From an uncultured Psychroserpens sp. (GTDB lineage: Bacteria > Bacteroidota > Bacteroidia > Flavobacteriales > Flavobacteriaceae): a stretch of 64,000 nucleotides of DNA. Where the stretch lies: assembly GCA_947488655.1 (NCBI GenBank), contig CANKZZ010000005.1, positions 372,001 through 436,000 on the forward strand. Reading direction: 5' to 3'. Position 1 is the first letter of the stretch; each line of letters opens with the position of its first letter. Below the pieces are notes generated by a model. It ran no database searches, was not told the origin of the DNA, and saw only the letters and a list, made by a program, of their open reading frames with translations. A program made the translations under genes and the position numbers. Of the stretch, positions 1 through 56,434 are shown one piece after another.

Positions 1-1299
1 TTACAAGTATTAAACCCAGCAATATTTTTACCAGCATCTGTAATAATAGCTGCAGTAATATCTATAGCCACAGGTAGTAGCTGGACAACATCTGCAACAG
101 TAGGTATAGCACTAGTTGGTATTGGCACCGCTTTGGGTATCAATCCTGGAATGATTGCTGGTGCAGTAATCTCTGGTGCGTATTTTGGTGATAAAATGTC
201 TCCCTTGAGTGACACTACAAATCTTGCTCCAGCAATGGCAGGAACAGATTTATTTACGCACATAAAATACATGTCGTATACAACTGTGCCTACAATTATT
301 ATTACTCTTATTATCTTCGGAATAATAAGCGCATCTATAGACACAACAGGAAATGCAGATATTACGCAAATTTTAGAAATCATTAATGCAACATTTAATA
401 TTACACCTTGGTTATTTTTAGTTCCTGTGGCTGTAGTTGCTTTAATACTATTAAAAACAAAACCTTTAATAGCATTAGGAACAGGTGTGGTATTAGCCAT
501 TATTTTTGCATTTATTTTTCAGCCAGAAGTGTTAGAAAACGTAACAGGCTCTAAATCTAAAACAGTTGTAAATGCTATATTTACAGATACAAATATACCA
601 ATAGATGATTCTGCCTATGTTGCAAATTTAAGTCCTGCAGACATTGAGATTATCAATACAAATGAAAGTCTAGAATCGCTCTTTAAAGATGGCGGAATAG
701 AAAGAAATTTTACTACTGAAGAATTACTAGAATCTTTTGCGCATGGAAACTATGACAAAGAAACATTAGATTTAAAAACTGAAAGTTTAAGCAGATTATT
801 AACAATTGATAAACTTAAACAACTATTTAATGCTGGAGGAATGAATGGGATGCTCTGGACTATATACCTTATAATTTGTGCCATGGTTTTTGGAGGTATA
901 ATGGATGGTATTGGTGCATTATCTAGAATTACTAAAGCCTTACTCTCAATCGCGACCTCTGTATTTGGCTTATTTTTAAGTACTGTTGCCAGCTGTTTAG
1001 GTTTAAATATTATAGCTTCAGATCAATATTTAGCAATAGTTATACCAGGTAAAATGTTTAAACAGGCTTACGAAGACAGAGGACTCGCACCAGAAAATCT
1101 CTCTAGAACATTAGAAGACTCTGGTACCGTAACATCTGTTTTAATTCCTTGGAATACGTGTGGTGCTTATCAATCTGGTGTATTAGGAGTTGGTGTTGGC
1201 GAGTATATTTTCTATGCCATATTTAACTGGTTAAGTCCATTTACAACACTACTATTTGCTGCATTAAATATTAAAATAAGACAATTAAAAGCTAAATAA
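1..1299 (+). CDS. nhaC: Na+/H+ antiporter NhaC (5'-truncated by window)
   Basis: Inner-membrane sodium/proton antiporter of the NhaC type, which exchanges internal Na+ for external H+ in pH and salt homeostasis. The frame is open from base 1, so the true start lies upstream; an ATG at 133 is internal. Visible family signatures are the glycine-rich transmembrane stretch followed by GAYFGDKMSPLSDTTNLAP, and near the C-terminus a further core segment with LEDSGTVTSVLIPWNTCGAY. A hydrophilic insertion of roughly 90 residues (about bases 540-830) separates two blocks of membrane helices. The gene stands alone, and the next gene has its own promoter. Identity of the family is secure; ion specificity is inferred from the family. 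Confidence 0.93.
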   Translation, partial: LQVLNPAIFLPASVIIAAVISIATGSSWTTSATVGIALVGIGTALGINPGMIAGAVISGAYFGDKMSPLSDTTNLAPAMAGTDLFTHIKYMSYTTVPTIIITLIIFGIISASIDTTGNADITQILEIINATFNITPWLFLVPVAVVALILLKTKPLIALGTGVVLAIIFAFIFQPEVLENVTGSKSKTVVNAIFTDTNIPIDDSAYVANLSPADIEIINTNESLESLFKDGGIERNFTTEELLESFAHGNYDKETLDLKTESLSRLLTIDKLKQLFNAGGMNGMLWTIYLIICAMVFGGIMDGIGALSRITKALLSIATSVFGLFLSTVASCLGLNIIASDQYLAIVIPGKMFKQAYEDRGLAPENLSRTLEDSGTVTSVLIPWNTCGAYQSGVLGVGVGEYIFYAIFNWLSPFTTLLFAALNIKIRQLKAK

Positions 1300-1373
1300 A
1301 TTTTCTTTATAGTTTTTAAATTTTACTATAGTTAAAAGTTATAGCCTAATAAGATTTTAAAATTTTATTAGGC

Positions 1374-1403
1374 TTGTTTTTTTAGTGTTCCACTGTATCT
1401 TTG
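1374..1403 (+). promoter_or_regulatory. Bacteroidota-type promoter of the peroxiredoxin gene
   Basis: A -33 TTG at 1374-1376 and a perfect TAnnTTTG (TATCTTTG) at 1396-1403 are separated by 19 bases, the usual flavobacterial spacing. The start codon follows 42 bases downstream. Confidence 0.8.
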
Positions 1404-1445
1404 CACCCTTAAAAATAAACTAATAATTATAAAATTTAAACACAA

Positions 1446-2090
1446 ATGGCTATAGTAGGAAAACAATTTCCAGATTTAAACGTAGACGCAATGAACGAAA
1501 TGGGTGATACCTTTAAATTAAACGTTCTTGAAGAAGCAAAAAACAACAATAAAAAAGTATTATTATTCTGGTATCCTAAAGATTTCACTTTTGTTTGTCC
1601 AACAGAGCTACACGCTTTTGAAGCTGCAAAAGAAGAATTTGCTAAAAGAAATACGATTATAATTGGTGCATCATGTGATACTCCAGAGGTTCACTTTGCA
1701 TGGTTAAACACACCAAAAGATAATGGTGGTATAGAAGGAGTTACTTATCCTTTATTAGCAGATTCTAATCGTAATCTTGCTAACACTTTAGGTATTTTAG
1801 ATATTACCAACGAAAGATATAATGAAGAAACCGGAGTTGTTACCGTAGATGGAGACAACGTTACCTATAGAGCAACTTATGTTATAGATGAGGATGGTAT
1901 CGTGCAGCACGAAGGTGTAAACAATATGCCAATTGGAAGAAATGTAAATGAATTTTTACGTATTATCGATGCTTTAACTCATGTACAAGAGAAAGGTGAA
2001 GTTTGTCCTGCAAACTGGGAAGAAGGTAAAGATGCAATGAGCGCAAACAGATTAGGTACTGCAGAGTATTTAGCAAATCACGTAAACTAA
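1446..2090 (+). CDS. 2-Cys peroxiredoxin (AhpC/TSA family)
   Basis: Cytoplasmic thiol peroxidase that reduces H2O2 and organic peroxides. The peroxidatic cysteine is C51 in the motif FTFVCPTE, and the resolving cysteine is C187 in EVCPANW, which makes it a typical 2-Cys enzyme. Its 214 residues fit the family, and the ATG start leaves no N-terminal excess. A thioredoxin begins 6 bases after the stop and is the likely electron donor, so the two are probably co-transcribed from the promoter at 1374-1403. Whether it should be called AhpC or Prx cannot be settled here because no AhpF is nearby. Family call is secure. Confidence 0.95.
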   Translation: MAIVGKQFPDLNVDAMNEMGDTFKLNVLEEAKNNNKKVLLFWYPKDFTFVCPTELHAFEAAKEEFAKRNTIIIGASCDTPEVHFAWLNTPKDNGGIEGVTYPLLADSNRNLANTLGILDITNERYNEETGVVTVDGDNVTYRATYVIDEDGIVQHEGVNNMPIGRNVNEFLRIIDALTHVQEKGEVCPANWEEGKDAMSANRLGTAEYLANHVN

Positions 2091-2096
2091 TTCATC

Positions 2097-2405: not shown

Positions 2406-2422
2406 TAAAAGACCTATTTAGA

Positions 2423-9018: not shown

Positions 9019-10449
9019 ATGAAAATCATTCTCGTTAGCATAGTAACAAGTTTTTTATTTATTGGATGTAATTCTAAATCTCAATCTGGCGATGTCGCAT
9101 ATTTTGGTGGTGAAATTATAAACCCAAACAATAATTATGTTACACTTTATAATAATGAAAATGAGAGAGATACTATTATACTAGACGAGTATAATAGATT
9201 TAATTATCAAATTAAAAATTTAAATAGTGGCTTGTACTATTTTACACATGGAGGAGAATATCAAACCTTACTTATAGAGCCAAATGATAGCATATTATTA
9301 AGACTTAACACAAATGATTTTGATGAATCTTTAGTGTATACAGGTAATGGTTCTAAGAAAAACAATTACCTTATAAAGGCATTTTTAGATCATGAGGTAG
9401 ACAGCAAAAAATTCTATAAACTTCAACATTTGGAGCCAGAAGAATTTGAAACGACGATTAATAAATTAAAAGAACAACGCTTAGAAAATTTAGAGAGATT
9501 TGTATTGGAGCAAGAAACGTCTCCTTTATTTAGAAAAGTTGCAGAAGCTGGTATTAATTACAGCTATTACACGTTTAAAGAAAAATATCCTTTTGGTTAC
9601 TTCGGAAACAATAAGTTAATTCATTATAAAGATTTACCCGAAGGTTTTTATGATTATAGAAAAGATGTAGATTTTAATAATGTCTCTCTAAGTGGTGTTT
9701 ATTCATATAATAAATTTATGGATTGGTATTTTCACAATACCGCCTTAAAAAAATATTATCATGATGGTAATCACCATAAGTTTAATAGACAAGCACTAGA
9801 TTATAATCTAGAAAAATTAAGATTGATTGATAGTGTAATTGACAACGAAACCATTAAAAATTACGTGCTTAAACATGCAACTAGAGTTTTTGTTTATAAC
9901 AGTTCTAGTGCAGAGCAATCTCAAAGCATGTTAGACTCTTATCTAGAAAAGAGTACGAATGATATTGATAAAACTTACATTAAAAACTTAGTAACTTCTA
10001 CTCTAAGTTTATATCCTGGAAATAAAATACCAAGTATAGAAATTATTGATTTTAATAATAATCAAAAAAATCTACATGAAGTTATTAGCGCTCCTACAGT
10101 AATTTATTGTTGGTCGTCTAATTTTAAATATAGCTATAGAAACAATCATTATATGATGAAGAATTTGAAGGCTAAATATCCCGAGATGAATTTTATAGCC
10201 ATTAATATTAACGACATGAATACTAGTTCTTGGAAGAAAACTTTAAAATTGTTAAAGTATCCTACCGAAAATGAATACATGTTTAAAAACCCTAATGAAG
10301 CTATACAAAAATTCGCGATTGCTAATTCTCAAAAACTATTACTTGTAGATGAACTTGGTAATATTATAAAAACCAACTTAGACTTGTATAGTAGTGATGT
10401 AGAAAGATTAATTGAATCTACATTAGCATCACATAATGATACTAAATAA
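9019..10449 (+). CDS. Lipoprotein with thioredoxin-like C-terminal domain lacking CXXC
   Basis: Exported lipoprotein of 476 residues: signal peptide with a lipobox ending FIGC (C17). The N-terminal part (about 25-115) resembles the beta-rich DUF4369-like domain that precedes TlpA-type thioredoxin domains in Bacteroidota; the middle is helical. The C-terminal part (about 350-470) has a thioredoxin-like layout, but the active-site position reads APTVIYCWSSN, with a single cysteine and no CXXC pair, so disulfide exchange is unlikely. It probably sits in the periplasmic face of a membrane. Possible promoter TATTTTTG at 8977-8984. Function unknown. Confidence 0.75.
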   Translation: MKIILVSIVTSFLFIGCNSKSQSGDVAYFGGEIINPNNNYVTLYNNENERDTIILDEYNRFNYQIKNLNSGLYYFTHGGEYQTLLIEPNDSILLRLNTNDFDESLVYTGNGSKKNNYLIKAFLDHEVDSKKFYKLQHLEPEEFETTINKLKEQRLENLERFVLEQETSPLFRKVAEAGINYSYYTFKEKYPFGYFGNNKLIHYKDLPEGFYDYRKDVDFNNVSLSGVYSYNKFMDWYFHNTALKKYYHDGNHHKFNRQALDYNLEKLRLIDSVIDNETIKNYVLKHATRVFVYNSSSAEQSQSMLDSYLEKSTNDIDKTYIKNLVTSTLSLYPGNKIPSIEIIDFNNNQKNLHEVISAPTVIYCWSSNFKYSYRNNHYMMKNLKAKYPEMNFIAININDMNTSSWKKTLKLLKYPTENEYMFKNPNEAIQKFAIANSQKLLLVDELGNIIKTNLDLYSSDVERLIESTLASHNDTK

Positions 10450-12949: not shown

Positions 12950-13981
12950 ATGCGTTCATTTAAAGCTTTAATAATCACTATATTAAGTGTAACTATTATT
13001 TCCTGCGGAAATTCTAATTCTCAAAAATCTAATCTGTCAATTTCTACAGATGCTAAAAACAATGTGGCTACGCTTGGCGAAACCGTTAAGCTATCAATTA
13101 AAAATCCAAAAGGACTTGACATTTCATCTGTTAACTACACCTTAAATGGAGAACCTATTGACGCTTCCTTTAAATTAGATGATGAGCTTTTAGGAGTTCA
13201 AACCGTAACTGCGACTGTTAAAACTGGCGATGCTTCCGAAGACATACAAACAAACATTACTATTTTAAATAATCAATCTCCAAAAGTTTATGGTTATAAA
13301 ATAATAAATGAGTATCCTCATGATATTACCTCATATACTCAAGGTTTAGAGTTTCATAATGGAGAATTATACGAAAGTACTGGTCAATATGGCGAATCTA
13401 AATTGCGAAAAGTAGATTATAAAACCGGTGAAGTACTTAAAAATATTACTATTGGAAACCAATATTTTGGTGAAGGTCTAACCATTATGAATGATAATAT
13501 TTACCAACTTACATGGCAGGAAAATATTGGCTTTGTATATGATGTTGATACGTTTGAGAAGAAAAGCAGCTTTACCTACGGAAAAAGTAAAGAAGGTTGG
13601 GGAATTTGTAACGATGGTACAAACATTTATAAAAGTGATGGTACCGAGCAAATTTGGTTGCTAAACCCAGAAACCTTAGTTGAAGATTCTAAACTTCAAG
13701 TCTATACCAATAAAGGAAAAATTGTTGGTATGAATGAGTTAGAATATGTCAATGGTAAAATTTATGCTAATCGGTATCAAAAAAATGGAGTTGCCATCAT
13801 AAATCCTAAAAATGGTGCCATTGAAGGTGTTATTGATTTTTCTCCCTTACACAATTTAGTAACACAACATGCTGGATTAGATGTTTTAAATGGTATTGCA
13901 TACAACCCAGAAACTAAAACGCTTTACGTAACTGGTAAGCGTTGGGACAAATTATTTGAGGTAGAAGTTTTTGAGAAATAG
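12950..13981 (+). CDS. Glutaminyl-peptide cyclotransferase (beta-propeller type), lipoprotein
   Basis: Exported enzyme of 343 residues that converts N-terminal glutamine of peptides to pyroglutamate. A lipobox ends at C19 (IISC). Residues about 25-105 form an Ig-like extension, and from about 110 the plant-type QC propeller follows, recognised by YTQGLEFHNGELYESTGQYGESKLRKVD and the repeats of the type 'EGWGICNDG' and 'MNELEYVNGKIYANRY'. Found in Bacteroidota as a periplasmic lipoprotein. A small membrane-protein ORF begins at the next base, so the two are probably cotranscribed. Confidence 0.92.
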   Translation: MRSFKALIITILSVTIISCGNSNSQKSNLSISTDAKNNVATLGETVKLSIKNPKGLDISSVNYTLNGEPIDASFKLDDELLGVQTVTATVKTGDASEDIQTNITILNNQSPKVYGYKIINEYPHDITSYTQGLEFHNGELYESTGQYGESKLRKVDYKTGEVLKNITIGNQYFGEGLTIMNDNIYQLTWQENIGFVYDVDTFEKKSSFTYGKSKEGWGICNDGTNIYKSDGTEQIWLLNPETLVEDSKLQVYTNKGKIVGMNELEYVNGKIYANRYQKNGVAIINPKNGAIEGVIDFSPLHNLVTQHAGLDVLNGIAYNPETKTLYVTGKRWDKLFEVEVFEK

Positions 13982-14258: not shown

Positions 14259-15020
14259 ATGAGAACGACAATAAACATAAACATTCCAACACCTTGTCAT
14301 GAAGATTGGGACGTAATGACACCACAACAACAAGGTCGTCATTGTGCATCTTGCGAGAAAACTGTTTTTGATTTTACAGCTAAAACAGATGAGCAAATTA
14401 TCAAAACGTATCAAACACAAAATAATCTTTGTGGTCGGTTTAAAACCTCTCAATTAGATAGAGAACTCGTATTAAACCGAAAAGAGAAAAACAACTATCT
14501 ATCTTATGTTGCCTCAACCCTTTTTGCTTTTTTAAGCTTTGGCTCTCTAGAAATTGAAGCACAAGAAAAGCCAAAGACTGTAACTATAGATTATTCTCAA
14601 AACCCGACAATAAAAGGAAAAATAGCAGTCTCAATTTTAAACAAAAACATTAAAGGTACCGTAACAAATAGTTATAATAATCTCCCAATTGTTGGTGTTA
14701 ATGTAGTTATTAAAGGAACAGAAAAAGGTGTACAAACAGATTTTGATGGCAATTATGAATTACATGCTAAAAAAGGAGATACACTAGTATTTTCTCTTCT
14801 TGGTTATGAAACTAAAGAGATTAAAGTTTCAAATAGTACCATATATAATATTTCTATTGCTGACTCAGAACTTGAAATTATGGGAGAAATCATGATTTAT
14901 GATCCTAAAATTGAAAAAACACATAACAAAAATGATCATGAGAATTTAGATATTAAAGAACGTTCATCAACGGGACAATTGTTGTATAAAATGACGTCTA
15001 TCTTCCGAAGAAAAAGTTAA
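14259..15020 (+). CDS. Four-cysteine membrane protein with CarboxypepD_reg-like domain (paralogue 1)
   Basis: First of three tandem paralogues, 253 residues. The N-terminus carries PCHEDWDVMTP, then HCASCEKTVFDFT, then LCGRF: four cysteines (C13, C29, C32, C58) that look like a metal-binding cluster. One transmembrane helix follows (about 80-97, LSYVASTLFAFLSF), then a beta-sandwich CarboxypepD_reg-like domain (about 125-205, VVGVNVVIKGTEKGVQTDFDGNYELHAKKGDTLVFSLLGYET). The end is LLYKMTSIFRRK. By topology the cysteine cluster would be on one face of the inner membrane and the beta domain on the other. Role unknown; an envelope sensor or anchor is a guess. Confidence 0.8.
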   Translation: MRTTININIPTPCHEDWDVMTPQQQGRHCASCEKTVFDFTAKTDEQIIKTYQTQNNLCGRFKTSQLDRELVLNRKEKNNYLSYVASTLFAFLSFGSLEIEAQEKPKTVTIDYSQNPTIKGKIAVSILNKNIKGTVTNSYNNLPIVGVNVVIKGTEKGVQTDFDGNYELHAKKGDTLVFSLLGYETKEIKVSNSTIYNISIADSELEIMGEIMIYDPKIEKTHNKNDHENLDIKERSSTGQLLYKMTSIFRRKS

Positions 15021-18051: not shown

Positions 18052-19611
18052 ATGATTAAACGAATTATATATTTTATACTTACAATTGGCATATTAATGT
18101 GCTGGAGCTCTTGCCGAAAAGATTTTGATTTTGCACCAAGTACTGGTAACCTCACCTTCTCAAAAGACACCATTTACTTAGATACCATTTTTTCAAATAT
18201 TGGATCTAGTACTTATAACCTAAAAGTATATAATCGTAGTGATGACGATATTTCAATTCCTACTGTACGTTTAAGTCAAGGAGAAAGCTCAAATTACAGA
18301 TTAAATGTTGACGGACTTCCAGGTAAAGAATTTCAAAATGTAGAGCTTTTAGCAAATGATAGTTTATTCATTTTTGTAGAAACCACAGCAGATATTCAAG
18401 CACTTGCTCAAAATAGTTTAGAGTTTTTATATACAGATGCTATTGAGTTTGATAGTGGTACAAATACTCAAAAAGTAGAATTGGTTACACTTATTAAAGA
18501 TGCAGTATTTATTTATCCAGATCGAGATAATACTACTGGTATTGTAGAAACCCTAACGTTTGATGTTGATGGAGATGGTGTTGATGACCAAACCACTCTT
18601 CAAGGTCGTTTTCTAGAAAATAGTGAACTTACGTTTACTAATGAAAAACCGTATGTTATTTATGGTTATGCTGCAGTAGATGATGGTGATATTTTAAATA
18701 TTGAAGCTGGAGCTCGGGTTCATTTTCATGCAAATTCTGGTTTACTAATTACAAACAATGCCTCTTTAAAAGTTAATGGTGCTTTAAGCCCAGATCAAGA
18801 GACCTTAGAAAATGAAGTCATTTTTGAAGGCGACCGTTTAGAGCCTCTATTTGCAGATGTTCCTGGTCAATGGGGAACGATTTGGTTATTTAATGGTAGT
18901 GTTGATAATGATATCAATTATGCAACGATTAAAAATGGAACCGTTGGTATTTTAAGTGAGGGCAATCAAAATGAAGTAGACGATAAATTAACGATTACGA
19001 ACTCTCAAATTTATAATTCTAGTAACTTCGGAATATTGGGTCGAGCGAGTTCAATTTCCGCAGAAAATGTGGTTATTAATGCTAGCGGACAATCTTCTTT
19101 TGCTGGTACTCTTGGCGGAAGATATAATTTCACACATTGTACAATTGCTAATTATTGGAATAATAGTTTTAGACAGTTTCCATCTGTGTTTTTAAATAAC
19201 TATGTTACCGATGAAAATAACCTCGACATTGGCAATGATTTATTTGCAAGATTTAACAACTGCATCATTTTTGGTAATGACAATCCAGAAATTGGTTTTG
19301 ATAATATTTCTGCTAACCTCTTTGATTTTAAATTTACCAATTGCTTAATTCGTTTTCAAGATTCAGGAGGTAATTTTTCTAATGATGCTAATTACCTGAT
19401 TAGCAATACCGATTTATATGAAGACTGCATTTTTAATAGCAATCCAGATTTTAAATTACCTTTTGAAAACATGTTGATGATTGGTGAGGATTCTGCTGCA
19501 AATGGTGAAGCCAGCGATGCTTTTATTATACCTTCAGATATTTTGGGCGAATCAAGAATCTCTCCTGCAGATTTAGGCGCTTACAAGAGTACTATTTTTG
19601 TTGAAGATTAA
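18052..19611 (+). CDS. Large surface lipoprotein, probable right-handed beta-helix
   Basis: 519 residues, leader with a lipobox WSSC (C21). An Ig-like region (about 30-150: NLTFSKDTIYLDTIFSNIGSSTYNLKVYNRSDDDI) is followed by an Asp-rich element DVDGDGVDD (about 174-182) resembling a calcium-binding loop. From about 210 the sequence repeats short strands of the type 'NASLKVNGAL', 'INYATIKNGTVGIL', 'LTITNSQIYNSSNFGIL' and 'ARFNNCIIFGN', typical of a pectate-lyase-like beta-helix. No catalytic residues are evident. Likely exposed at the cell surface; binding function inferred only. Confidence 0.8.
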   Translation: MIKRIIYFILTIGILMCWSSCRKDFDFAPSTGNLTFSKDTIYLDTIFSNIGSSTYNLKVYNRSDDDISIPTVRLSQGESSNYRLNVDGLPGKEFQNVELLANDSLFIFVETTADIQALAQNSLEFLYTDAIEFDSGTNTQKVELVTLIKDAVFIYPDRDNTTGIVETLTFDVDGDGVDDQTTLQGRFLENSELTFTNEKPYVIYGYAAVDDGDILNIEAGARVHFHANSGLLITNNASLKVNGALSPDQETLENEVIFEGDRLEPLFADVPGQWGTIWLFNGSVDNDINYATIKNGTVGILSEGNQNEVDDKLTITNSQIYNSSNFGILGRASSISAENVVINASGQSSFAGTLGGRYNFTHCTIANYWNNSFRQFPSVFLNNYVTDENNLDIGNDLFARFNNCIIFGNDNPEIGFDNISANLFDFKFTNCLIRFQDSGGNFSNDANYLISNTDLYEDCIFNSNPDFKLPFENMLMIGEDSAANGEASDAFIIPSDILGESRISPADLGAYKSTIFVED

Positions 19612-22705: not shown

Positions 22706-23890
22706 ATGAAGCAATTACTACTCACAACAGTACTTCTTCTGGTACTAACATCATGTAGCGGAAGAAAACAAATTGAAAAAGCAATTAGTCATGGTAACTA
22801 TGACCAAGCAATCAATGACGCGTTACAAAAACTCGAAAACAATAAGGATAAAAAGCGTAAGCAAGACTATATCGTTATGCTCGAAGATGCGTATTACAAA
22901 GTTTTAGAGGAAGATTTACAAGATGTTGCACATTTAAAAAAGGATGGAAATCCTGAGCAATACAAAACTATTTACGAAATTTATTTAGATTTAGAAGCGA
23001 GACAAAATGCTATTAAACGTGTTATGCCTTTACAAATAAATGGTAGAAACTTAGATTTAAAATTTAATGATTATACTTCGGAAATCGTCGAGTATAGATA
23101 CAAAACGTCAGATTATTTAATTGATCAAGGTATCACACTTTTAGATTCTGAAGATAAATATAACGCTAGACAAGCTTATGATATCTTTAGTTATATAGAA
23201 CGTATAAATCCAAATTTTGAAGAGACTAGGAGTTTAATGACCGAAGCTCACCAAAAAGGAATAGATTATGTTATGGTGTCTATTGAGAACCAAACAAGAC
23301 AAATTATTCCGCAGCAATTAGAGGCAGACTTGTTAAATTTTGATACTTACGGTTTAAATCAATTTTGGACGGTTTATCATGCACAGCAAATTTCCGAAGT
23401 AAACTATGATTACGCCATGCTATTACAGTTAAAGCGCATTAATATTTCGCCTGAGCAAGTTAACTCTAGACAGTTGCTTAAACAAAAAAATATTGTTGAC
23501 GGTTGGGAATACCAAAAAGATAGTAATGGAAATGTTTTAGTTGATAGCTTAGGCAATAAAACTAAGGTTGATAAAATAGTCACTGTAAAAGCACGATATT
23601 TTGAGACCAATCAATTTAAATCTACTCAAGTAATCGCAGATGTTGTTTATACAGATTTAAAAACAAATCAAACTTTAGATGCATTTGCTATTGATAGTGA
23701 ATTTGTGTTTGAGCATTTTTATGCAACTGTAAGAGGAGATAAAAGGGCTTTAAATAGAAACGAATATGATTTAACTAGAAATAGAAGACTCCACTTCCCT
23801 ACCGATGCACAAATGGTATATGATACTGGAGAAGACATTAAATTAAAGTTAAAGCAAATTATAAACTCTTATAGAATGCGAAAAGGGTAA
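22706..23890 (+). CDS. Lipoprotein with TPR-like helices, function unknown
   Basis: 394 residues with a leader and a lipobox LTSC (C17). After 'GRKQIEKAISHGNYDQAINDALQKLENN' (a TPR-like helical pair) the protein is mostly helix to about residue 180, then mixed. The segment 'VDSLGNKTKVDKIVTVKARYFETNQFKSTQVIADVVYTDLKTNQTLDAF' is a beta sandwich common to this flavobacterial lipoprotein group. No catalytic motif. A large hairpin follows the stop. Probably an outer- or inner-membrane lipoprotein of unknown role. Confidence 0.72.
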   Translation: MKQLLLTTVLLLVLTSCSGRKQIEKAISHGNYDQAINDALQKLENNKDKKRKQDYIVMLEDAYYKVLEEDLQDVAHLKKDGNPEQYKTIYEIYLDLEARQNAIKRVMPLQINGRNLDLKFNDYTSEIVEYRYKTSDYLIDQGITLLDSEDKYNARQAYDIFSYIERINPNFEETRSLMTEAHQKGIDYVMVSIENQTRQIIPQQLEADLLNFDTYGLNQFWTVYHAQQISEVNYDYAMLLQLKRINISPEQVNSRQLLKQKNIVDGWEYQKDSNGNVLVDSLGNKTKVDKIVTVKARYFETNQFKSTQVIADVVYTDLKTNQTLDAFAIDSEFVFEHFYATVRGDKRALNRNEYDLTRNRRLHFPTDAQMVYDTGEDIKLKLKQIINSYRMRKG

Positions 23891-31298: not shown

Positions 31299-31345
31299 AA
31301 GCAACGTAAATTTTAGAAATAAAATGAGCGTTGCTTTTCTTTTTG
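31299..31345 (+). terminator. Probable terminator of clpB
   Basis: Stem AAGCAACG (31299-31306) / CGTTGCTT (31329-31336) with a 22-base loop and a T run. It overlaps the extreme 5' end of the longest possible reading frame of the next gene, supporting a start further downstream. Confidence 0.55.
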
Positions 31346-31386
31346 GATACTTTTTTCGTAATTTAACTTCATCAAAACTCTATCAC

Positions 31387-37238: not shown

Positions 37239-37355
37239 ACAACTTAAGGCAACCTTTTTATAAAAAAGTACGTCTATATAAAAAAAACCACCAATCAACT
37301 CTTACTGATAAATAGTCAACAATCTATGATCATTAAGGCAAACAAACTCTATTGT

Positions 37356-39815
37356 ATGAAAACAAAACTACTCGTTACATTTTCACTATTATGTACACTC
37401 ATTTCATTTGCACAAATTCAAGGTACGGTCACAGATAACAAAAACCAACCGTTACCTTTTGTAAATATTTATTTAGAAAACACCTACAAAGGCACCACGA
37501 GTAATGAAGAAGGTAATTATGAACTTTATATTTCCGAAGAAAAAAAATATACAGTTGTTTTTCAATTTTTAGGCTATAAAACGGTTAAGAAACAAGTAGA
37601 CATTAAGTCGTTTCCATTTACATTAGATGCGGTATTGCTGGAAGAAGAAGTGTCTCTAGATGAAGTTGTAATAAACTCTGAAGAAAATCCAGCAAATATT
37701 ATTATTCGTGCTGCAATAGCAAAACGAAAAGAAAATTTGGAAAAAATTAATAGCTATAAAGCCGATTTCTATTCTCGTGGATTAATTAGAATTAAAGAAG
37801 CTCCAGAAAAAATATTAGGAGAAGAGATAGAAATAGATGGTTTAGATTCTACAAGAAGTGGAGTTATTTACCTTTCTGAAACTGTATCAAAACTAGAGTT
37901 TTTAAGACCAAATAAATTAAAAGAGAAAATTATTGCCTCCAAGGTAAGTGGAGATAGTAAAGGGTTTAGCTTTAATAATGCTATTGATGTAGAATTTGAT
38001 TTATATGAAAATACTATAGAGTTAGGTAATCAAATTATTTCTCCTATAGCTAATAATGCCTTTGGATATTATCGTTATAAACTAGAAGGTGTTTTTTATG
38101 ATGATAGAGGCAATCTAGTTAATAAAATTAAAGTTACACCAAGACGAGAAAACGACCCTGTATTTGATGGTTATATTTATATTGTAGAAGATCAATGGAC
38201 CATCTACGCATCTGAGTTAGACATTACAGGTACACAAGCTAAATTACTAGGTGTGGATAAAATTAGAATTACTCAAAACTATTCGTTCTCAGAGAATGAC
38301 AATATTTGGGCAAAAATCTCTCAAAATATCGATTTTAAATATGGTCTCTTCGGAATAAAAGGTGATGGTCGTTTTACTGCTGTATTTAGTAATTACGAAT
38401 TTAATCCAGGATTAACCAGAAAAGATTTTACTAGAGAAATAGTATCATTTGCAGATGAGGCTAATAAAAAAGATTCTCTCTTTTGGAACACAAATAGACC
38501 TGTACCCTTAACAACCGAAGAAATTACAGATTATATCAAAAAAGATAGCATTCAAATTATTAAAGACTCTAAAGTGTACAAAGACTCTGTAGATAGGGTT
38601 AGAAATACATTTAAATTAGGTGATATAATTGGAGGCTATACATATAATAATACTCACGAGAACTGGCGAGTTGGCATTACGTCTCCAATAGAAGCAATTA
38701 GTTTTAACACGGTACAAGGCTGGAACGGTAACATTGGAGCGTCTTATACAAAAGGATATAATGATTACAAACAATTTTTATCTTTTGGCGGAAATTTAAA
38801 TTATGGGTTTAGCGATGATCGTTTAAGAGGTACACTATACGCGAGATATAAATTTAATAACAAAAGTAGACCTTATTTAACAGTTTCGGGTGGTGTTACT
38901 ACGCAACAATTTAACAGTAGTAATTCTATTTCTAAACTTTTAAATACTGCATTTTCTATGTTTTCTGAACAAAATTTTATGAAAATTTACGAAAACAGCT
39001 ATGCACAACTATCCTACTCTAACGAACTTTTTAATGGCTTCAGGCTTAACACCAGTATTGGTTATCAAAGACGAAAGGCTTTATTTAACACCACAGATCA
39101 AGCTTGGTATCCTCAAGATGACAGAGTTTATACAAGCAATAATCCTCTAGACGAAACTGCTTATGGCATTGCGCCTTTTCAAACACATAATATCATTAAA
39201 TTTGGATTAGATGCTAGAATAAATTTTGCTCAAAACTACCTGAGTTATCCAGATGGAAAATTCAACATTCCAAATAGCAAATATCCTACAGTTAATATTG
39301 GCTATGAGAAAGGATTCTCGTCATCTATTGACGATTATAATTTTGATCAAATTAAAATTGGAGCAAGGCAAGGTTTAAATATTGCCGATAAAGGTCGTTT
39401 TAATTACAATATTAAAGCAGGTAAATTCTTTAATGGAGATGATATTTCATTTGTTGATTATCAACATTTTAATGGTAACCAAACCCAAATAGGATCTGGT
39501 TCTTACCTCAATGTGTTTAACAATTTACCTTATTATGCAGCGAGCACAAACGACTCGTATTTAGAAATGCATGCTGAGCATGATTTTAATGGTTTTCTCC
39601 TCGGAAAAGTGCCATTATTAAAAAAGCTAAACTTTAATTTGGTAGTTGGAGCACATGCATTAGCAACACCAGATAATAAACCCTACCAAGAATATACAAT
39701 TGGTTTAGACAATATTGGTTGGGGCAAATTTAGATTTTTACGTTTAGATTACGTCCGCTCATATCAAGGAGGTTTTCAAAGCGATGCCATCTTGTTTGGT
39801 TTAAAATTCTTTTAA
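37356..39815 (+). CDS. Outer-membrane protein with CarboxypepD_reg-like and DUF5686 domains
   Basis: 819 residues from the ATG at 37356; the ATG at 37326 would add ten residues before the signal peptide (MKTKLLVTFSLLCTLISFAQ). Residues about 20-105 form a CarboxypepD_reg-like domain (IQGTVTDNKNQPLPFVNIYLENTYKGTTSNEEGNYELYI), then a DUF5686 region (from about IIRAAIAKRKENLEKINSYKADFYSRG) and a C-terminal beta-barrel with alternating aromatic residues and a final phenylalanine. It has no TonB box or plug. Proposed outer-membrane channel or assembly protein of Bacteroidota; substrate unknown. A strong terminator follows. Confidence 0.87.
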   Translation: MKTKLLVTFSLLCTLISFAQIQGTVTDNKNQPLPFVNIYLENTYKGTTSNEEGNYELYISEEKKYTVVFQFLGYKTVKKQVDIKSFPFTLDAVLLEEEVSLDEVVINSEENPANIIIRAAIAKRKENLEKINSYKADFYSRGLIRIKEAPEKILGEEIEIDGLDSTRSGVIYLSETVSKLEFLRPNKLKEKIIASKVSGDSKGFSFNNAIDVEFDLYENTIELGNQIISPIANNAFGYYRYKLEGVFYDDRGNLVNKIKVTPRRENDPVFDGYIYIVEDQWTIYASELDITGTQAKLLGVDKIRITQNYSFSENDNIWAKISQNIDFKYGLFGIKGDGRFTAVFSNYEFNPGLTRKDFTREIVSFADEANKKDSLFWNTNRPVPLTTEEITDYIKKDSIQIIKDSKVYKDSVDRVRNTFKLGDIIGGYTYNNTHENWRVGITSPIEAISFNTVQGWNGNIGASYTKGYNDYKQFLSFGGNLNYGFSDDRLRGTLYARYKFNNKSRPYLTVSGGVTTQQFNSSNSISKLLNTAFSMFSEQNFMKIYENSYAQLSYSNELFNGFRLNTSIGYQRRKALFNTTDQAWYPQDDRVYTSNNPLDETAYGIAPFQTHNIIKFGLDARINFAQNYLSYPDGKFNIPNSKYPTVNIGYEKGFSSSIDDYNFDQIKIGARQGLNIADKGRFNYNIKAGKFFNGDDISFVDYQHFNGNQTQIGSGSYLNVFNNLPYYAASTNDSYLEMHAEHDFNGFLLGKVPLLKKLNFNLVVGAHALATPDNKPYQEYTIGLDNIGWGKFRFLRLDYVRSYQGGFQSDAILFGLKFF

Positions 39816-44289: not shown

Positions 44290-44922
44290 ATGAAATTTTT
44301 TCTCATTTATTGCTTACTGTTTATTGCATTAATTAGCTGCAGACAAAATGGAAAAATTAAAGTTGAACTGACAGATTGTTATGGCGATATGGATATTGAA
44401 ATTCCAATTTCCGAAGTTAAAATAGATTACATTAAACTGTTTAAAGATCATCCAGAATTTGTGTCTAATGGTTTTGATTTTCCGGTAGGAAAACCAAATG
44501 CTCATGGGTATTATAATGCTCAAAAATTTAAGGAAAACGACCATTTAGGAGATGATTGGAATGGTGTTGGTGGTGGTAATAGTGATTTAGGCGACCCAAT
44601 ATATGCAATTGCCAATGGTTATGTTAGTGAGGTAAAAGATTATAAAGGTGGTTGGGGAAACGTATTGAGAATTGTTCATTTACATAATAACCAACTCTTC
44701 GAATCGCTTTATGCACATTGTGATACTATGTTAGTCTCACAAGACAAATTCGTAAAAAAAGGAGAACAAATAGCAACTATAGGCAATTGCAATGGTTCTT
44801 ATTATGCACATTTACATTTAGAGATTAGAAATGATTATGATTTAGAAATTGGTCCAGGTTATTCTATAGATACCACTGGATATTTAAATCCAACAAATTT
44901 TATTAATAAAAACAGAAACTAA
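44290..44922 (+). CDS. M23 family metallopeptidase lipoprotein
   Basis: 210 residues with a lipobox ISC (C17) after a hydrophobic leader. Zinc-site residues are H85 and D89 (NDHLGDDWNG) and the HLH motif (H174, H176), with YAHCD (H143); this is the complete LytM set, so an active peptidoglycan endopeptidase is expected in the periplasm, anchored to a membrane. The DUF1015 gene starts at the next base with TTG. Confidence 0.92.
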   Translation: MKFFLIYCLLFIALISCRQNGKIKVELTDCYGDMDIEIPISEVKIDYIKLFKDHPEFVSNGFDFPVGKPNAHGYYNAQKFKENDHLGDDWNGVGGGNSDLGDPIYAIANGYVSEVKDYKGGWGNVLRIVHLHNNQLFESLYAHCDTMLVSQDKFVKKGEQIATIGNCNGSYYAHLHLEIRNDYDLEIGPGYSIDTTGYLNPTNFINKNRN

Positions 44923-46988: not shown

Positions 46989-48377
46989 AGAAAAAGAAAT
47001 AAGAAAATTTACGCAATACTTGACATAGAAACCACTGGCGGAAAATATAATGAAGAAGGCATTACAGAGATTGCTATCTATAAATTTGATGGTCATAAGG
47101 TAATTGATAAATTTATTAGCCTCGTCAATCCCGAACGAGAAATACAACCGTTTGTAGTTAATCTTACTGGTATTAACAGTAAAATGCTTAGGAGTGCACC
47201 TAAGTTTTACGAAGTAGCAAAACGAATTGTCGAAATAACAGAAGATTGTATTATCGTTGCCCATAACTCTCAATTTGATTATAGAATTTTACGTACCGAG
47301 TTTAAAAGATTAGAGTATACCTTTAAACGTAAAACACTCTGTACAGTTGAGCTTTCTAAGCAACTTATACCAGATCAAGCCTCTTACAGTTTAGGAAAGT
47401 TAACACGTGCTTTAGGCATACCTGTGAGTGACAGACATCGTGCTAATGGTGATGCTATGGCAACAGTTAAGTTGTTTAAAATACTCTTATCTAAAGATTT
47501 AGATAAAACTATTATTAAGGATAATGTTAAACAAGATATTACTAAACGTTTAAATGATACCCATAAATCTATCATTGATAGTTTACCCTCAATAACTGGA
47601 GTTTATTATATTCATGATGAAAATGGTGAAATCATTTACATTGGTAAAAGTAAAAACATTAAGCAACGCATCAATCAACATTTAACTAATACGAGTAAAA
47701 AGTCAAAAAAATTACAACTATTGGCAAAAACTGTAACTTATGAAGCTACAGGTAACGAGCTCGTTGCATTATTAAAAGAAAGTGAAGAAATCAAACGAAA
47801 TAAGCCCGCTTTTAATCGCGCTTTAACTCGTACTACATTTACACATGCGCTCTACAGCTTTACAGACAAAAATGGTTATATTAATTTAAAAATTGATAAA
47901 ACTAATGGTAAAGAGAAACGCATTACTTCATTTAGCAATATGCAGAGTGCTAAAAGCTTTATGTTTAAAGTTGTTGATCAATATGCTTTATGTCAAAAAT
48001 TAACAGGCCTCTACCCTACAAAAACTAATTGTTTTAATTATACCATTAAAAGTTGTAATGGTGCTTGTGTAAACGAAGAATCTCCAGAAGAGTATAACCA
48101 ACGTGTACTAGAATTAATAGCTAAAAACAGTTATGACAATAATAACATGCTTATTATAGATCAAGGTAGAGCCATCGATGAGAAAAGTGTGATATATATA
48201 GAGAATGGCGTGTTTAAAGGTTTAGGTTTCTATGAACTCAATCATCAAATTAATAATATTGATGTTTTAGAGTCTATTATTACACCTATGGAAAATAACA
48301 GAGACACCCAACATATCATCCAAAGTTATTTAAGACGCAATAAAAGGGTAAAAACAACCACATTAAAAACAATATGA
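46968..48377 (+). CDS. DEDDh exonuclease fused to GIY-YIG (UvrC/Cho-type) nuclease
   Basis: 469 residues. The N-terminal DnaQ-like 3'-5' exonuclease (about 15-180) has LDIETTGG, HNSQFDYR and HRANGDAMAT (the DEDDh acids and His). A GIY-YIG domain follows at about 205-290 (GVYYIHDENGEIIYIGKSKNIKQRINQHLT), then a UvrC-like C-terminal part with CFNYTIKSCNGACVNEE. The start is uncertain: the only canonical codon is a TTG at 46968 within the tandem repeat; relatives begin near 'YAILDIETTGG'. A DUF3857 gene overlaps the stop by 4 bases. Probably acts in DNA repair, by domain content. Confidence 0.87.
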   Translation: MRLCDFARKRNKKIYAILDIETTGGKYNEEGITEIAIYKFDGHKVIDKFISLVNPEREIQPFVVNLTGINSKMLRSAPKFYEVAKRIVEITEDCIIVAHNSQFDYRILRTEFKRLEYTFKRKTLCTVELSKQLIPDQASYSLGKLTRALGIPVSDRHRANGDAMATVKLFKILLSKDLDKTIIKDNVKQDITKRLNDTHKSIIDSLPSITGVYYIHDENGEIIYIGKSKNIKQRINQHLTNTSKKSKKLQLLAKTVTYEATGNELVALLKESEEIKRNKPAFNRALTRTTFTHALYSFTDKNGYINLKIDKTNGKEKRITSFSNMQSAKSFMFKVVDQYALCQKLTGLYPTKTNCFNYTIKSCNGACVNEESPEEYNQRVLELIAKNSYDNNNMLIIDQGRAIDEKSVIYIENGVFKGLGFYELNHQINNIDVLESIITPMENNRDTQHIIQSYLRRNKRVKTTTLKTI

Positions 48378-50335
48378 AATATTTAGCCCTTTTTATATGT
48401 TTAGCTTTCACAACACTAAATGCTCAGAATGATTTTTATTCTGAAGGTTTTGAAGTTTCCAAACCAGATATTGAGATAAACGAATTTACAAAAGACTCAA
48501 CTGCAAATGCGTTAGTGATTTATGAAGTTGGTGATAGCTATGTTGACAAATATAGTTATAGACTAAAAACGACTATAAAACGTAAATTAAAAATTCTTAA
48601 TCGTAATGGTTTTGAACATGGTACAGTTTCAATTTATCTTTATGATAACAATAATGGTAAAAAGGAAAAAGTAGAAGATATTTATGCTACTGTTTACAAT
48701 TTAGAAAACGGAAAAATAGTTAATACTAAACTCGAAAAGTCCTCAATATTTGAGGAAAACTATAATGAGAATTATAACATCGTCAAATTTGCATTACCAA
48801 ATATACAAGTAGGCTCTGTGATCACCTACAGTTATACTGTAGAGACACCTTTTATGCATAAATATAAAAGTTGGTATTTTCAAGACGACATTCCAAAACT
48901 ACATAGTGAGTATAATGCAAGTATTCCAGGAAACTGGGAGTACAACATAAAACTTGTTGGAGTCAATAAATTGACCACTAAATATTCTACTGTAGAAAAA
49001 AACTGTTTACAAATCTCTAATGGAGCAAATTCTAGTTGTGGTATCTATAAATATGTGATGAAAGATGTACCTGCCTTTGTTAATGAGAACTTCATGACAA
49101 CTAAACTAAATTATTTATCTCGTATTGAATATGAATTAAAGGTTTTTAGAGGTTTTGATGGCACTGTTGAGAACATCACTAAAACGTGGAAATCTACCGA
49201 TAAGGAAATTGAAAAAGACACAGATTTAGGTAAACAACTAAGAAGAACAAGTATTGTTAAAAACCTCTTAGACGAAACCATAACTACGGAAACTGATGAG
49301 CTCATTAAAGCGAATCAGATTTTTGAGTATGTACAAAACGAATATGTTTGGAACGAAAGTTTTAATGTACTTCAAAATGTTTCTATTAAAGATCTTATAA
49401 CTGAAAAATCTGGAAATGTAGGAGAAATCAATGCACTACTTTATAATTTATTAATTACAAATGACATTGATGCAAAGCCTATACTCTTGTCTACAAGAAA
49501 TAACGGTTTTATAACACAAGTGTATCCTGTTTTATCTGATTTCAACTATTTGATAATTAAAGTCAATATTAATGGAGAAACGTATTTGCTTGATGCTACA
49601 GATGATTTTTTAACTTTTGGTCAAATACCTTTTAGATGTCTTAACTCTTATGGTCGTCTGTTAGACTTTGATTCTAACAGTGAATGGTATCCTATAAACA
49701 TCAAAGATTATAGTGCTAAGGTGTTTAGATATGATTTTGATTTTGATGAGAATAAAACGCTAAAAGGCGATGTAAATTATTTATCTAAAGGCTATCACTC
49801 TCTCCATGATAGAGAACGTTATTTTACAAATATTGAAACTTTTAAAAACAACCTCATTAATAAAAACAATTCTTTAGAAATTTCAGGATTTGATAGTAAT
49901 GATACACAAAAAACAAGTGCAGACTTTAACTTAAGTTTTCAAATTGAACATTCACCAGATGAAGTAGGCAACACTATTTATATCAATCCTTTTATAATAA
50001 AGTATTTTGATAAAAACCCATTTCAACTGCAAGAGCGTAGTTATCCAATAGATTTTGGTTATAAGGATACCTATACGTATGGTATAAAAATCAATATTGA
50101 CGATACTTTTATTATTAAATCTTTACCTGAGTCAATGAGTTTAGCGCTACCAAACAATAAAGGTTCATTTATTTTCTCGACAAAACAGGAAGAAAATTCA
50201 GTAATAATATATTTTAAACTATCTTTTAAAGAGGCAATTTATGAGCCAGTTTTTTATGATGGATTAAAAAAACTACTTGAACAAGTTATTAATACACAAA
50301 ACAACTCTCTAATTGTCTTAGAGAAAAAACAATAA
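48374..50335 (+). CDS. DUF3857 / transglutaminase-like protein, exported
   Basis: 653 residues with a signal peptide (MKYLALFICLAFTTLNAQ). It carries a DUF3857 domain (about 60-230), then a transglutaminase-core-like domain (about 290-400: IFEYVQNEYVWNESFNV, SGNVGEINALLYNLLITNDIDAKPILLSTRNNG, YLLDATDDFLTFG). The Cys expected in an active transglutaminase is replaced: the position reads SGNVGEINALL, so peptidase activity is doubtful. Probably periplasmic. The ATG overlaps the exonuclease stop by four bases (ATGA), so the two are coupled. Confidence 0.85.
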   Translation: MKYLALFICLAFTTLNAQNDFYSEGFEVSKPDIEINEFTKDSTANALVIYEVGDSYVDKYSYRLKTTIKRKLKILNRNGFEHGTVSIYLYDNNNGKKEKVEDIYATVYNLENGKIVNTKLEKSSIFEENYNENYNIVKFALPNIQVGSVITYSYTVETPFMHKYKSWYFQDDIPKLHSEYNASIPGNWEYNIKLVGVNKLTTKYSTVEKNCLQISNGANSSCGIYKYVMKDVPAFVNENFMTTKLNYLSRIEYELKVFRGFDGTVENITKTWKSTDKEIEKDTDLGKQLRRTSIVKNLLDETITTETDELIKANQIFEYVQNEYVWNESFNVLQNVSIKDLITEKSGNVGEINALLYNLLITNDIDAKPILLSTRNNGFITQVYPVLSDFNYLIIKVNINGETYLLDATDDFLTFGQIPFRCLNSYGRLLDFDSNSEWYPINIKDYSAKVFRYDFDFDENKTLKGDVNYLSKGYHSLHDRERYFTNIETFKNNLINKNNSLEISGFDSNDTQKTSADFNLSFQIEHSPDEVGNTIYINPFIIKYFDKNPFQLQERSYPIDFGYKDTYTYGIKINIDDTFIIKSLPESMSLALPNNKGSFIFSTKQEENSVIIYFKLSFKEAIYEPVFYDGLKKLLEQVINTQNNSLIVLEKKQ

Positions 50336-54812: not shown

Positions 54813-54813
54813 C

Positions 54814-54821
54814 CAAATTTA
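54814..54821 (-). promoter_or_regulatory. -7 element (TAAATTTG) of the RprX-like kinase
   Basis: Perfect TAnnTTTG on the minus strand, 4 bases before the second in-frame ATG (54809). Confidence 0.5.
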
Positions 54822-54872
54822 ATATTTTAACATTTAGAATGATTGCTGTTTAACCTTACATTAACAAATATG

Positions 54873-55472
54873 TTAATTTTTGAGTTTCTTAATTTGTTTG
54901 AGAATAGATTGGTGCGTCTTTATAACCTGAGCGTTAGTTTCTGCTAAGATATTATTAGTGATTACAAAATGAGATTTCTTAATTTTATCTTCATCACTCA
55001 TTTGATTTTTTATAATCGCTTCTATTTTAGATTTACTAGAGTTATCTCTTTTCATAACACGAGATATGCGTTGATCTAAATCGGCAATAACTGTTATTAT
55101 AAAATCAAATTCGGCTTCTTTATTATGTTCAAAAATAATTGCAGCTTCCTTAATTACATAGGGTGCATTTTGCTTTTTAAGCCAACGATTAAAATGAGAG
55201 GCTACTTTTGGATGCACAATAGCATTCATTTTTAGTAAATAGTCTTTATTATTAAAGATTTTTGATGCTATTAGTGGCTTATTAAGTGTATTACTTATAT
55301 AAACCTCTTCCCCAAATAATGCTATAAGTTTTCTTTTTATAACCTTAGACCTTAACATTAATAGTTTTGCCTCATCATCGGCTATATAAATAGGTACGCC
55401 TAACGATTTAAAATAGTTGGCTACGGTAGTTTTACCACTACCTATTCCTCCTGTAAGTCCTACAATTATCAT
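54873..55472 (-). CDS. coaE: Dephospho-CoA kinase
   Basis: Cytoplasmic last step of coenzyme A synthesis. 199 residues with P-loop GLTGGIGSGKTTVAN at the N-terminus, YIADDEAK, and LIASKIFNNKDYLLKMNAIVHPKV as family hallmarks. Its start overlaps the stop of the YbbR-like gene by 4 bases (ATGA arrangement), so it is cotranscribed and translationally coupled with it. Followed after 60 bases by the kinase-regulator pair. Confidence 0.95.
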   Translation of the reverse strand: MIIVGLTGGIGSGKTTVANYFKSLGVPIYIADDEAKLLMLRSKVIKRKLIALFGEEVYISNTLNKPLIASKIFNNKDYLLKMNAIVHPKVASHFNRWLKKQNAPYVIKEAAIIFEHNKEAEFDFIITVIADLDQRISRVMKRDNSSKSKIEAIIKNQMSDEDKIKKSHFVITNNILAETNAQVIKTHQSILKQIKKLKN

Positions 55473-56434
55473 TTTATAATATATTCTACTTTATTTTGTT
55501 TCATTCTAGCCGATTTTACTTTGGCAGAGTTTACGATAAGTTTAGGTTTAAAAAATGAGTTATTAGAATTTAAGACCTCATTATAGTTACATTCAATTAT
55601 AAAATCAGATGGTTTAATATCGTTATAATCATCTAGACTTAAATAATAAGATACTTTTATGTGCTTCGGAAAATAATTTATCTCAACTGAATTAGGCAAG
55701 TTTAAGATAGTAATAGGTATATCAAATGTGCCTTCAGTAAATTTATCAACTTGAGCACTAACATTTACCTTCGTAGCCGATAGTTTTAATTTATCTGATG
55801 CATTCGGAAATTCTAAATCTAAGGTTGAATTGATATTAGTTTTAACATCTTCAAAATCTAGACGTTTAGTATTTATAAAATTAATAGTATCTATTTGTTT
55901 TTCTGCACCTATAATATTAACCGAGTCTGGTTTAATTTCTACACCATTTAAAGTATCATAACCAGGTACAAAATTAATTTTAGATGTTAAAACTACAGGG
56001 ACCTTCTTCACACTTAACGTTCCAAAAGGTAACAAAAGCGTATCTGGTTTAACCGAAATAATCTCTACATTATTACCTAAAAATTGTTTTAAATCATAAA
56101 CACTTTTATCTGCAAGCCACACGTAGGTATTATCATTTATATAGGTGCTATTTTTAAAATCTAGTTGATAATTTTGGTCATAAAAGTAATAAGATAACAG
56201 TTTAAAACCATGAGTAGAAACCGTAACATTTACTTTTGGTATACTGTCTAACGTTATAATGTTTTTATCTGGTAAATTTTTATATTGAATGGTAAACGGA
56301 ATGGTCTCAACGTAGGTTTCAGATAGTTTTGTAATAACCAAAATTAAAAATGCTAATAAAAAGAAAAGTCCAAAAACATTTAGTTTTTTACTTTTAATAG
56401 ACCTTCCTAATTTAGCTTGTAAACTTTTTACCAT
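55469..56434 (-). CDS. YbbR-like domain protein
   Basis: 321 residues: one N-terminal membrane helix (about 20-40, LNVFGLFFLLAFLILVI) and an extracytoplasmic chain of YbbR-like beta domains ('KNLPDKNIITLDSIPKVNVTVSTHGF', 'LPFGTLSVKKVPVVLTSKINFVPGYDTL'). In other bacteria YbbR proteins regulate cyclic-di-AMP synthases; no such gene is seen here. It overlaps the glycosyltransferase at its 5' end by 23 bases and coaE at its 3' end by 4, forming one operon. Confidence 0.88.
   Translation of the reverse strand: MVKSLQAKLGRSIKSKKLNVFGLFFLLAFLILVITKLSETYVETIPFTIQYKNLPDKNIITLDSIPKVNVTVSTHGFKLLSYYFYDQNYQLDFKNSTYINDNTYVWLADKSVYDLKQFLGNNVEIISVKPDTLLLPFGTLSVKKVPVVLTSKINFVPGYDTLNGVEIKPDSVNIIGAEKQIDTINFINTKRLDFEDVKTNINSTLDLEFPNASDKLKLSATKVNVSAQVDKFTEGTFDIPITILNLPNSVEINYFPKHIKVSYYLSLDDYNDIKPSDFIIECNYNEVLNSNNSFFKPKLIVNSAKVKSARMKQNKVEYIIK

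Follow-up and report, generated by a model that had tools for sequence, protein, structure and literature searches.

The 8-mer TTCCGAAG is scattered at high density over a Psychroserpens genome (G000; 3.6 Mb in 20 contigs), and we consider it probable that this word, preferably in the form (T)TTCCGAAG followed by an A-tract, serves a group of naturally competent Flavobacteriaceae as its DNA-uptake sequence, with import of DNA by a route of the Riemerella type. The word came to attention in a 64-kb stretch of this genome (contig C5, positions 372001-436000), hereafter the window, which holds 20 copies, ten on each strand. For the protein encoded at 48374-50332 of the window, the closest named matches among three loci retrieved belong to Psychroserpens damuponensis (82%) and P. 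burtonensis (74%), on which the assignment to Psychroserpens is based. In the following, TTCCGAAG is referred to as the 8-mer core and TTTCCGAAGAAA as the extended 12-mer, and each word read in reverse served as the control. Most likely, the word works in the manner of the DNA uptake sequences (DUS) of Neisseriaceae and the uptake signal sequences (USS) of Pasteurellaceae without being a member of these pilus-based systems. No other 8-mer is as strongly over-represented in the 464 kb of G000 examined, and in samples of 100-464 kb from enriched genomes neither composition nor codons account for the excess.

An initial annotation of the window had listed the 20 copies, their even distribution over the two strands and eight exact copies of TTTCCGAAGAAA, and all of these positions and orientations proved correct. 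When up to one mismatch is allowed, the 12-mer has 17 matches where 0.62 are expected. About one core per 64 kb had been anticipated from base composition; 100 dinucleotide-preserving shuffles of the window gave a mean of 0.85 copies (largest number, three). In the whole genome, TTCCGAAG occurs 1,194 times (580 + 614 by strand) and its reversal 119 times (57 + 62), while 363 copies of TTTCCGAAGAAA (173 + 190) compare with two (2 + 0) of its control. In a 464-kb sample composed of 400 kb of contig C1 and the window, TTCCGAAG ranked first among the 8-mers under an order-4 Markov model (162 seen, 30.9 expected), and overlapping words from the same site also headed the lists of 6-, 7-, 9-, 10- and 12-mers. 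A frequency no higher than the Markov expectation, which the annotation had named as an outcome that would speak against a signal, was not what we found: the count is far above expectation in the 464 kb and above that of the reversed word genome-wide.

The site consists of (T)TTCCGAAG and about six A-rich positions thereafter, with G in only 1% of the copies directly 5' of the core. Past the A-tract, which is stronger in G000 than in any other genome compared, the flanks hold little information and are unrelated among copies. Single-base variants of the core are mostly unenriched, the exceptions being the sixth position and, on low counts, the seventh. The sixth-position variants TTCCGTAG and TTCCGCAG are 3.9-fold and 3.7-fold over the model, respectively, and also exceed synonymous shuffles (30 vs 4.9 and 27 vs 3.2), such that the core tolerates variation at one position (TTCCGNAG). 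These features bear on the idea that a methylase recognises the word, or that a bias of DNA modification or repair maintains it, as has been proposed for HIP1 of cyanobacteria. A fixed word in excess in both coding and noncoding DNA is in line with this idea, and HIP1 is likewise an octamer over-represented genome-wide in coding DNA. However, a degenerate A-tract and the tolerance just described are unusual for a modification site, a word does not become enriched simply by being modified, and HIP1 is a perfect palindrome, whereas the word studied here is non-palindromic and carries a tail. We regard this explanation as improbable.

Coding DNA was examined with open reading frames (ORFs) called by a simple longest-first rule instead of a gene finder. 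In 379 ORFs of G000, 134 coding copies were present, compared with a mean of 7.2 (largest number, 16) in 100 synonymous shuffles, and 38.0 kb of noncoding DNA held 27 copies where 0.92 are expected. In a second ORF set, 135 of the 162 copies were coding, 72 of them on the same strand as the gene and 63 on the opposite one, and all six combinations of frame and strand were used (54, 35, 27, 15, 3 and 1 copies). The different readings noted earlier for coding copies in the window, Ser-Glu, Phe-Gly, Phe-Pro-Lys and Phe-Arg-Arg, were recovered as described. Per kilobase, noncoding DNA of G000 holds about twice as many copies of the 8-mer as coding DNA and about six times as many of the 12-mer. The intergenic copies of the window are indeed all perfect 12-mers, but according to the ORF table they number six (7128, 16651, 17144, 19615, 43313 and 46929) and not five as first annotated; two more perfect 12-mers (36522 and 37532) are coding.

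In principle, the word could be a by-product of UUCG-loop terminators (TTTC-TTCG-GAAA), of codon pairs like TCC-GAA or of the remains of dispersed repeats. The greater richness of noncoding DNA agrees with such an origin, as does the concentration of nine of the 27 intergenic copies in convergent-gene intervals (6.8 kb of a total of 36.1 kb); moreover, TTTCTTCGGAAA is able to form a short hairpin, and a few window copies, such as those at 19615, 31641 and 43313, fold in this way. Yet folding of all 20 window contexts on both strands gave a short hairpin at the word in few cases and none in most, and together with the location of 135 of the 162 copies inside ORFs this led us to reject an RNA hairpin or intrinsic terminator for most copies. 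A codon-pair origin, the artefact that the annotation had warned of, is ruled out by the synonymous shuffles in G000 and in other enriched genomes, and a dispersed repeat or mobile element end by the lack of homology in the flanks beyond the A-tract. Codon, RNA and repeat origins are thus excluded for the bulk of the copies, and as a general explanation a by-product is barely credible. The Markov excess, the reversed-word control and synonymous-codon shuffling all support the earlier suggestion of a signal at the DNA level.

The word is shared with other genera. In a 12-mer survey of 299 genomes of the family, 38 were enriched by hand count, that is, had at least 20 copies and a count no less than fourfold that of the reversed control; this number includes G001, in which the 8-mer is unenriched (483 vs 597 for the control). 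Among 36 genomes surveyed for the 8-mer, mostly chosen as high or low for the 12-mer, 26 exceeded the control more than 1.8-fold and ten did not. The highest 8-mer counts were those of G279 (2,678, or one per 1.4 kb), G012 (2,187) and G063 (2,099), all with strands at about 50:50, and the genomes of P. damuponensis and P. burtonensis contain 1,520 and 1,060 copies. Two of the genomes, G045 and G267, are listed in the same genus as G000. Part of the Flavobacteriaceae is without an excess of the word. When mapped on a tree of rpoB from 29 genomes (of 30 searched, one had no match), the label 'enriched', here a ratio of 1.8 or more, needs three changes, and none of 500 shuffles was as low. Enrichment occurs in one clade of 15 genomes, in Psychroserpens amid non-enriched neighbours and, weakly, in G096.

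In a blind k-mer ranking with similar contexts collapsed, TTCCGAAG was the top 8-mer in G000, in the congener G267 and in representatives of three other genera (G039, G243 and G101). In the 200-kb stretch G101:C1:1-200000 there is also a repeat family with about 23 members, all in a single orientation (e.g., ACGGTTAAGGCT), which dominates the k-mer table and hides TTCCGAAG until contexts are collapsed. Measured against 40 synonymous shuffles, the coding excess was 18.9 in G000, 14.7 in P. damuponensis (G300), 9.3 in G039, 9.0 in G243, 8.2 in G267, 6.8 in G241 and 5.7 in G101, as compared with 1.0 and 2.4 in the non-enriched genomes G059 and G143. In seven enriched samples, 78 to 96% of the copies lie inside ORFs. 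Intergenic DNA is preferred in G000 and G300, whereas G267, although a congener, shows no such preference, and the same holds for G039, G243 and G101. A weaker excess may exist outside the family. Among 247 genomes drawn from the whole class, of which nine (G000 included) belong to the same family, the top counts besides G000 were 517 in the 7.7 Mb of G484 (control 446), 505 in G456 (control 143) and 437 in the 3.5 Mb of G468 (control 8), with ratios that are rough because the reversed control is itself rare in some genomes, such as G468 and its family f17. In G468 and other f17 genomes, TTCCGAAG is clearly above the reversed control, which may reflect a rare control, an enriched word, or both.

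Conservation of individual copies was assessed in an alignment of G000 with its congener G267 (140.7 kb, 76.9% identity), from which gap-interrupted copies were excluded. Identical in the other genome were 18 of 49 copies of G000 and 18 of 34 copies of G267, compared with 290 of 2,546 and 290 of 3,162 words of the same composition, respectively (Fisher test, 5e-6 for G000 and 2e-10 for G267). Copies are thus conserved three to six times as often as same-composition words. Since the identical fraction exceeds that of comparable words while about half or more of the copies differ between the two species, the copies are kept and yet turn over.

Spacing in G000 is as random (coefficient of variation, CV, 1.08; random range 0.85-1.14), with the exception of one 25.5-kb gap (P = 0.01), and even spacing, which we looked for in this genome, was not found. 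These data have to be considered together with the possibility that an abundant protein which organises the chromosome, of the nucleoid or segregation type, binds at the word. Scatter over the whole genome in both orientations, a near-palindromic core (TTC-C-GAA) and conservation above controls would all suit such a site. It would, however, not predict a thousand-plus intragenic copies, and the high share of copies inside ORFs in the seven enriched samples, the random instead of regular spacing, several-fold differences among genera and the lack of any copy over 24 kb of this chromosome speak against it. We consider a site of this kind unlikely.

A recombination word of the Chi type, at which the AddAB/RecBCD-like enzyme of the lineage would change its activity and of which many copies would be selected, likewise has to be taken into account. 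Chi sites share with the present word an 8-mer core and a location mostly in genes, and near-random spacing would fit as well. Known Chi words are clearly polar. When copies in G000 were assigned to the leading or lagging strand by the sign of the local GC skew, summed over 50-kb bins, 75 were leading and 67 lagging, in keeping with the balanced strands of the whole genome. For G241, a single contig from which 15 samples of 20 kb were taken, a leading-strand excess of 84:63 was observed. This excess is strong in the first eight samples (46:18) and absent from the other seven (38:45); in terms of sequence strand, the eight samples, which extend up to 1.63 Mb of G241:C1, contain 46 reverse- and 18 forward-strand copies. 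The whole G241 genome has 705 and 740 copies on its two strands. Strand listings for other single contigs (G101, G254 and much of G143) were left out, as their all-plus look fits a plus-first listing order. The pattern in G241 is uneven, unlike the steady polarity of Chi; across G000 and G241 there is no consistent polarity relative to replication. The A-tract extension and a density of up to one copy per 1.4 kb in G279 are further differences from Chi, and we judge a Chi-type function to be rather unlikely. Among the four functions put forward in the initial annotation, uptake sequence, recombination hot-spot word, nucleoid-protein site and modification target, the uptake sequence fits best, and strand polarity that is weak or lacking speaks against a Chi-type hot spot. 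An uptake sequence also accounts for the data better than a terminator, codon or repeat origin or a Chi site.

The stretch without copies that was mentioned above, G000:C1:307236-331233, accounts for the 25.5-kb gap and spans 24.0 kb in which about 8.5 copies would be expected at the mean density of C1. At this locus the congener G267 has 419 bp between aligned blocks. Ten proteins were scanned, and a phage-type integrase, DUF3871, DUF3987, DUF4007, a PAPS-reductase domain, GmrSD_N, AAA_23 and a DEAD/ResIII helicase were found, on the basis of which the stretch is probably a mobile island. DUF4007, the PAPS-reductase domain, AAA_23 and GmrSD_N presumably belong to a DNA-phosphorothioation defence system. 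A further 20-kb stretch without copies (about 8 expected), G241:C1:230001-250000, shows strong GC skew and is a surface-polysaccharide cluster judging by seven of ten proteins scanned (glycosyltransferases, NeuB, DegT).

If the word is an uptake sequence, fragments carrying it (TTCCGAAGAAA, TTTCCGAAGAAAAA) would be preferred by a DNA receptor at the cell surface, imported and then recombined into the chromosome. Because such fragments would be imported and recombined, the word would accumulate, mainly through a transmission advantage, at every tolerated place, coding or not and in either orientation. Accumulation driven by uptake predicts the combination seen here: copies scattered with no steady polarity and in any reading frame, a word shared by several genera, conservation along with turnover, and an empty island. 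Competence itself, the gain in uptake due to the word and the identity of the protein that reads it are inferred. The likely importer would be a surface lipoprotein with DUF5689 and a neighbouring outer-membrane barrel, perhaps driven by TonB, with a periplasmic HHH protein and then ComEC and DprA acting downstream.

This proposal draws on work on Riemerella. According to a transposon screen in R. anatipestifer, transformation needs a DUF5689 protein and an adjacent carboxypeptidase-regulatory-like outer-membrane protein, and proteins with HHH and DUF1343 domains, ComEC, DprA, ComF and RecA are also essential (PMC8459023). In the same species, transformation is impaired when tonBA or tonBB is mutated, an effect that for tonBB is attributed to iron shortage by the authors (PMC8383284). 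Our gene searches covered PF00437, DUF5689, HHH, ComEC and DprA. In G000, DUF5689 is encoded at C1:465658-466290 by what appears by eye to be a lipoprotein gene. The adjoining ORF had no Pfam match for the part examined; from its position and the published gene order it is presumed to be the end of an outer-membrane barrel. ComEC was located at C2:359395-360195, DprA at C1:173230-173844 and HHH repeats in a 293-aa frame (C2:690499-690879). By sequence, G000 therefore appears equipped with Riemerella-type transformation genes, i.e., DUF5689 by a presumed barrel, HHH, ComEC and DprA. The type IV pilus/type II secretion ATPase PF00437, on the other hand, gave strong matches (E below 1e-120) in ten of 35 genomes and was not above cut-off in G000, G279, G012 and G039, so pilus-based uptake cannot be the rule, and type IV pili are rejected as the importer in G000, where this ATPase was not found.

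Several observations weigh against an uptake sequence or against its assignment to these proteins, and the leading-strand excess in one half of the G241 samples is one of them. DUF5689 is present in all 35 genomes, and ComEC, DprA and HHH in all 26, word-poor ones included in each case. As the transformation genes also occur in genomes without the word, their presence does not predict it. A DUF5689 tree sorted enriched from non-enriched genomes no better than rpoB did (four vs three changes); the DUF5689 sequence is thus not supported as a predictor of the word, and DUF5689 is no more than a candidate for its reader. A sequence search of the DUF5689 protein against solved structures gave nothing convincing. 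The machinery is a trait of the family while the word is not. In addition, the collapsed k-mer ranking found no comparable over-represented word in samples of the non-enriched genomes G059 and G143. A 12.2-kb gap without sites in G000 contains core-type genes (six scanned, among them GlmS-like and ATP-synthase-like ones), and DNA of G000 that does not align with G267 has 24 copies in 78.6 kb, the empty 24 kb included, as compared with 55 in 139.8 kb of aligned DNA. Outside the one island, unaligned DNA is therefore not poorer in copies. Finally, we found no uptake or transformation data for these genomes.

To our knowledge, Neisseriaceae and Pasteurellaceae, which both use type IV pili, are the only groups in which sequence-specific DNA uptake is established. 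The Neisseriaceae DUS resembles the present word in being short and non-palindromic, in having copy numbers per genome of roughly one thousand or above, in both orientations and in coding as well as intergenic DNA, and in being common to related genera with some variation. The word itself is different, and the DUS is read by a type IV pilin, whereas no type IV pilus ATPase was detected in G000. The USS of Pasteurellaceae, in particular Haemophilus influenzae, similarly combines a core with an adjoining AT-rich tract, which in the present word is an A-tract, and shows a density like that of our richest genomes, exemplified by G279, and turnover between species; it differs in its core, in the phylum and in the pilus ATPase that was not detected in G000. 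Both systems are named in a study on Riemerella columbina, which prefers its own DNA; in that study an uptake word is left open and none is identified, raw k-mer counts having yielded only A/T-rich words (PMC7965970, Table 3). The word emerges here because k-mer counts were corrected for composition. Riemerella is assigned to the same family as G000 in the taxonomy of the papers on it (PMC8459023, PMC7965970, PMC8383284), and shares with G000 DUF5689 beside a presumed outer-membrane barrel, HHH, ComEC and DprA.

Literature searches, which left subscription papers and preprints mostly outside, gave no match for the 8-mer as a whole word and, by titles and abstract openings, nothing on topic for the 11/12-mer. 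A search for uptake words in Bacteroidetes, Bacteroidota or Flavobacteriaceae gave nothing beyond PMC7965970, one for DUF5689 only PMC8459023, and the matches for Chi sites in Bacteroidetes were off topic by title. We tentatively suggest, with rather less confidence than we place in an uptake function as such, that Bacteroidota possess a self-recognition uptake word which is a separate invention and is read by a TonB-driven outer-membrane importer consisting of the DUF5689 lipoprotein and the barrel rather than by a type IV pilus. An uptake sequence in these bacteria would have originated independently, in a different phylum and with other machinery, and would show that such words arise repeatedly. 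For these Flavobacteriaceae it would furthermore mean that gene exchange has both a barrier and a route that can be tested. It would also provide a model for the self-DNA preference of R. columbina, and bacteria carrying the word might be transformed with DNA tagged by it.

Copies of the 8-mer core and the extended 12-mer in the 64-kb window (positions relative to the window)
Element	Position	Strand	Context
TTCCGAAG	315..322	-	opposite strand in ORF 133-1299 (+)
TTTCCGAAGAAA	7127..7138	+	intergenic
TTCCGAAG	9600..9607	-	opposite strand in ORF 9019-10449 (+)
TTCCGAAG	13234..13241	+	in ORF 12950-13981 (+)
TTCCGAAG then AAA	15003..15010	+	frame 0, near 3' end of ORF 14259-15020 (+)
TTTCCGAAGAAA	16650..16661	+	intergenic
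TTTCCGAAGAAA	17141..17152	-	intergenic
TTCCGAAG	19026..19033	-	opposite strand in ORF 18052-19611 (+)
TTTCCGAAGAAA	19614..19625	+	intergenic, directly past stop codon of ORF 18052-19611
TTCCGAAG	23076..23083	-	opposite strand in ORF 22706-23890 (+)
TTCCGAAG	23392..23399	+	in ORF 22706-23890 (+)
TTCCGAAG then AAA	31641..31648	+	in ORF 31294-31791 (+)
TTCCGAAG then AAA	32762..32769	-	in ORF 31788-33278 (-)
TTTCCGAAGAAA	36519..36530	-	in ORF 35836-36597 (-)
TTTCCGAAGAAA	37531..37542	+	in ORF 37326-39815 (+)
TTCCGAAG	38348..38355	-	opposite strand in ORF 37326-39815 (+)
TTTCCGAAGAAA	43310..43321	-	intergenic
TTCCGAAG	44409..44416	+	in ORF 44290-44922 (+)
TTTCCGAAGAAA	46928..46939	+	intergenic
TTCCGAAG	55664..55671	-	in ORF 55469-56434 (-)

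 In the combined C1 and window sample of G000, TGTTCCTG (42 vs 13.6) and GGTTATG (96 vs 45.5) are mildly enriched. The G059 sample contains a weak word, GCTTATGG / TGCTTATGGA (20 vs 4.1 and 8 vs 0.6), possibly by chance or as another dialect. In the G039 sample, TTTCTGAA and TTCTGAAG are second enriched words at about 2-fold over the model, and TTCTGAAG is one base off the core.

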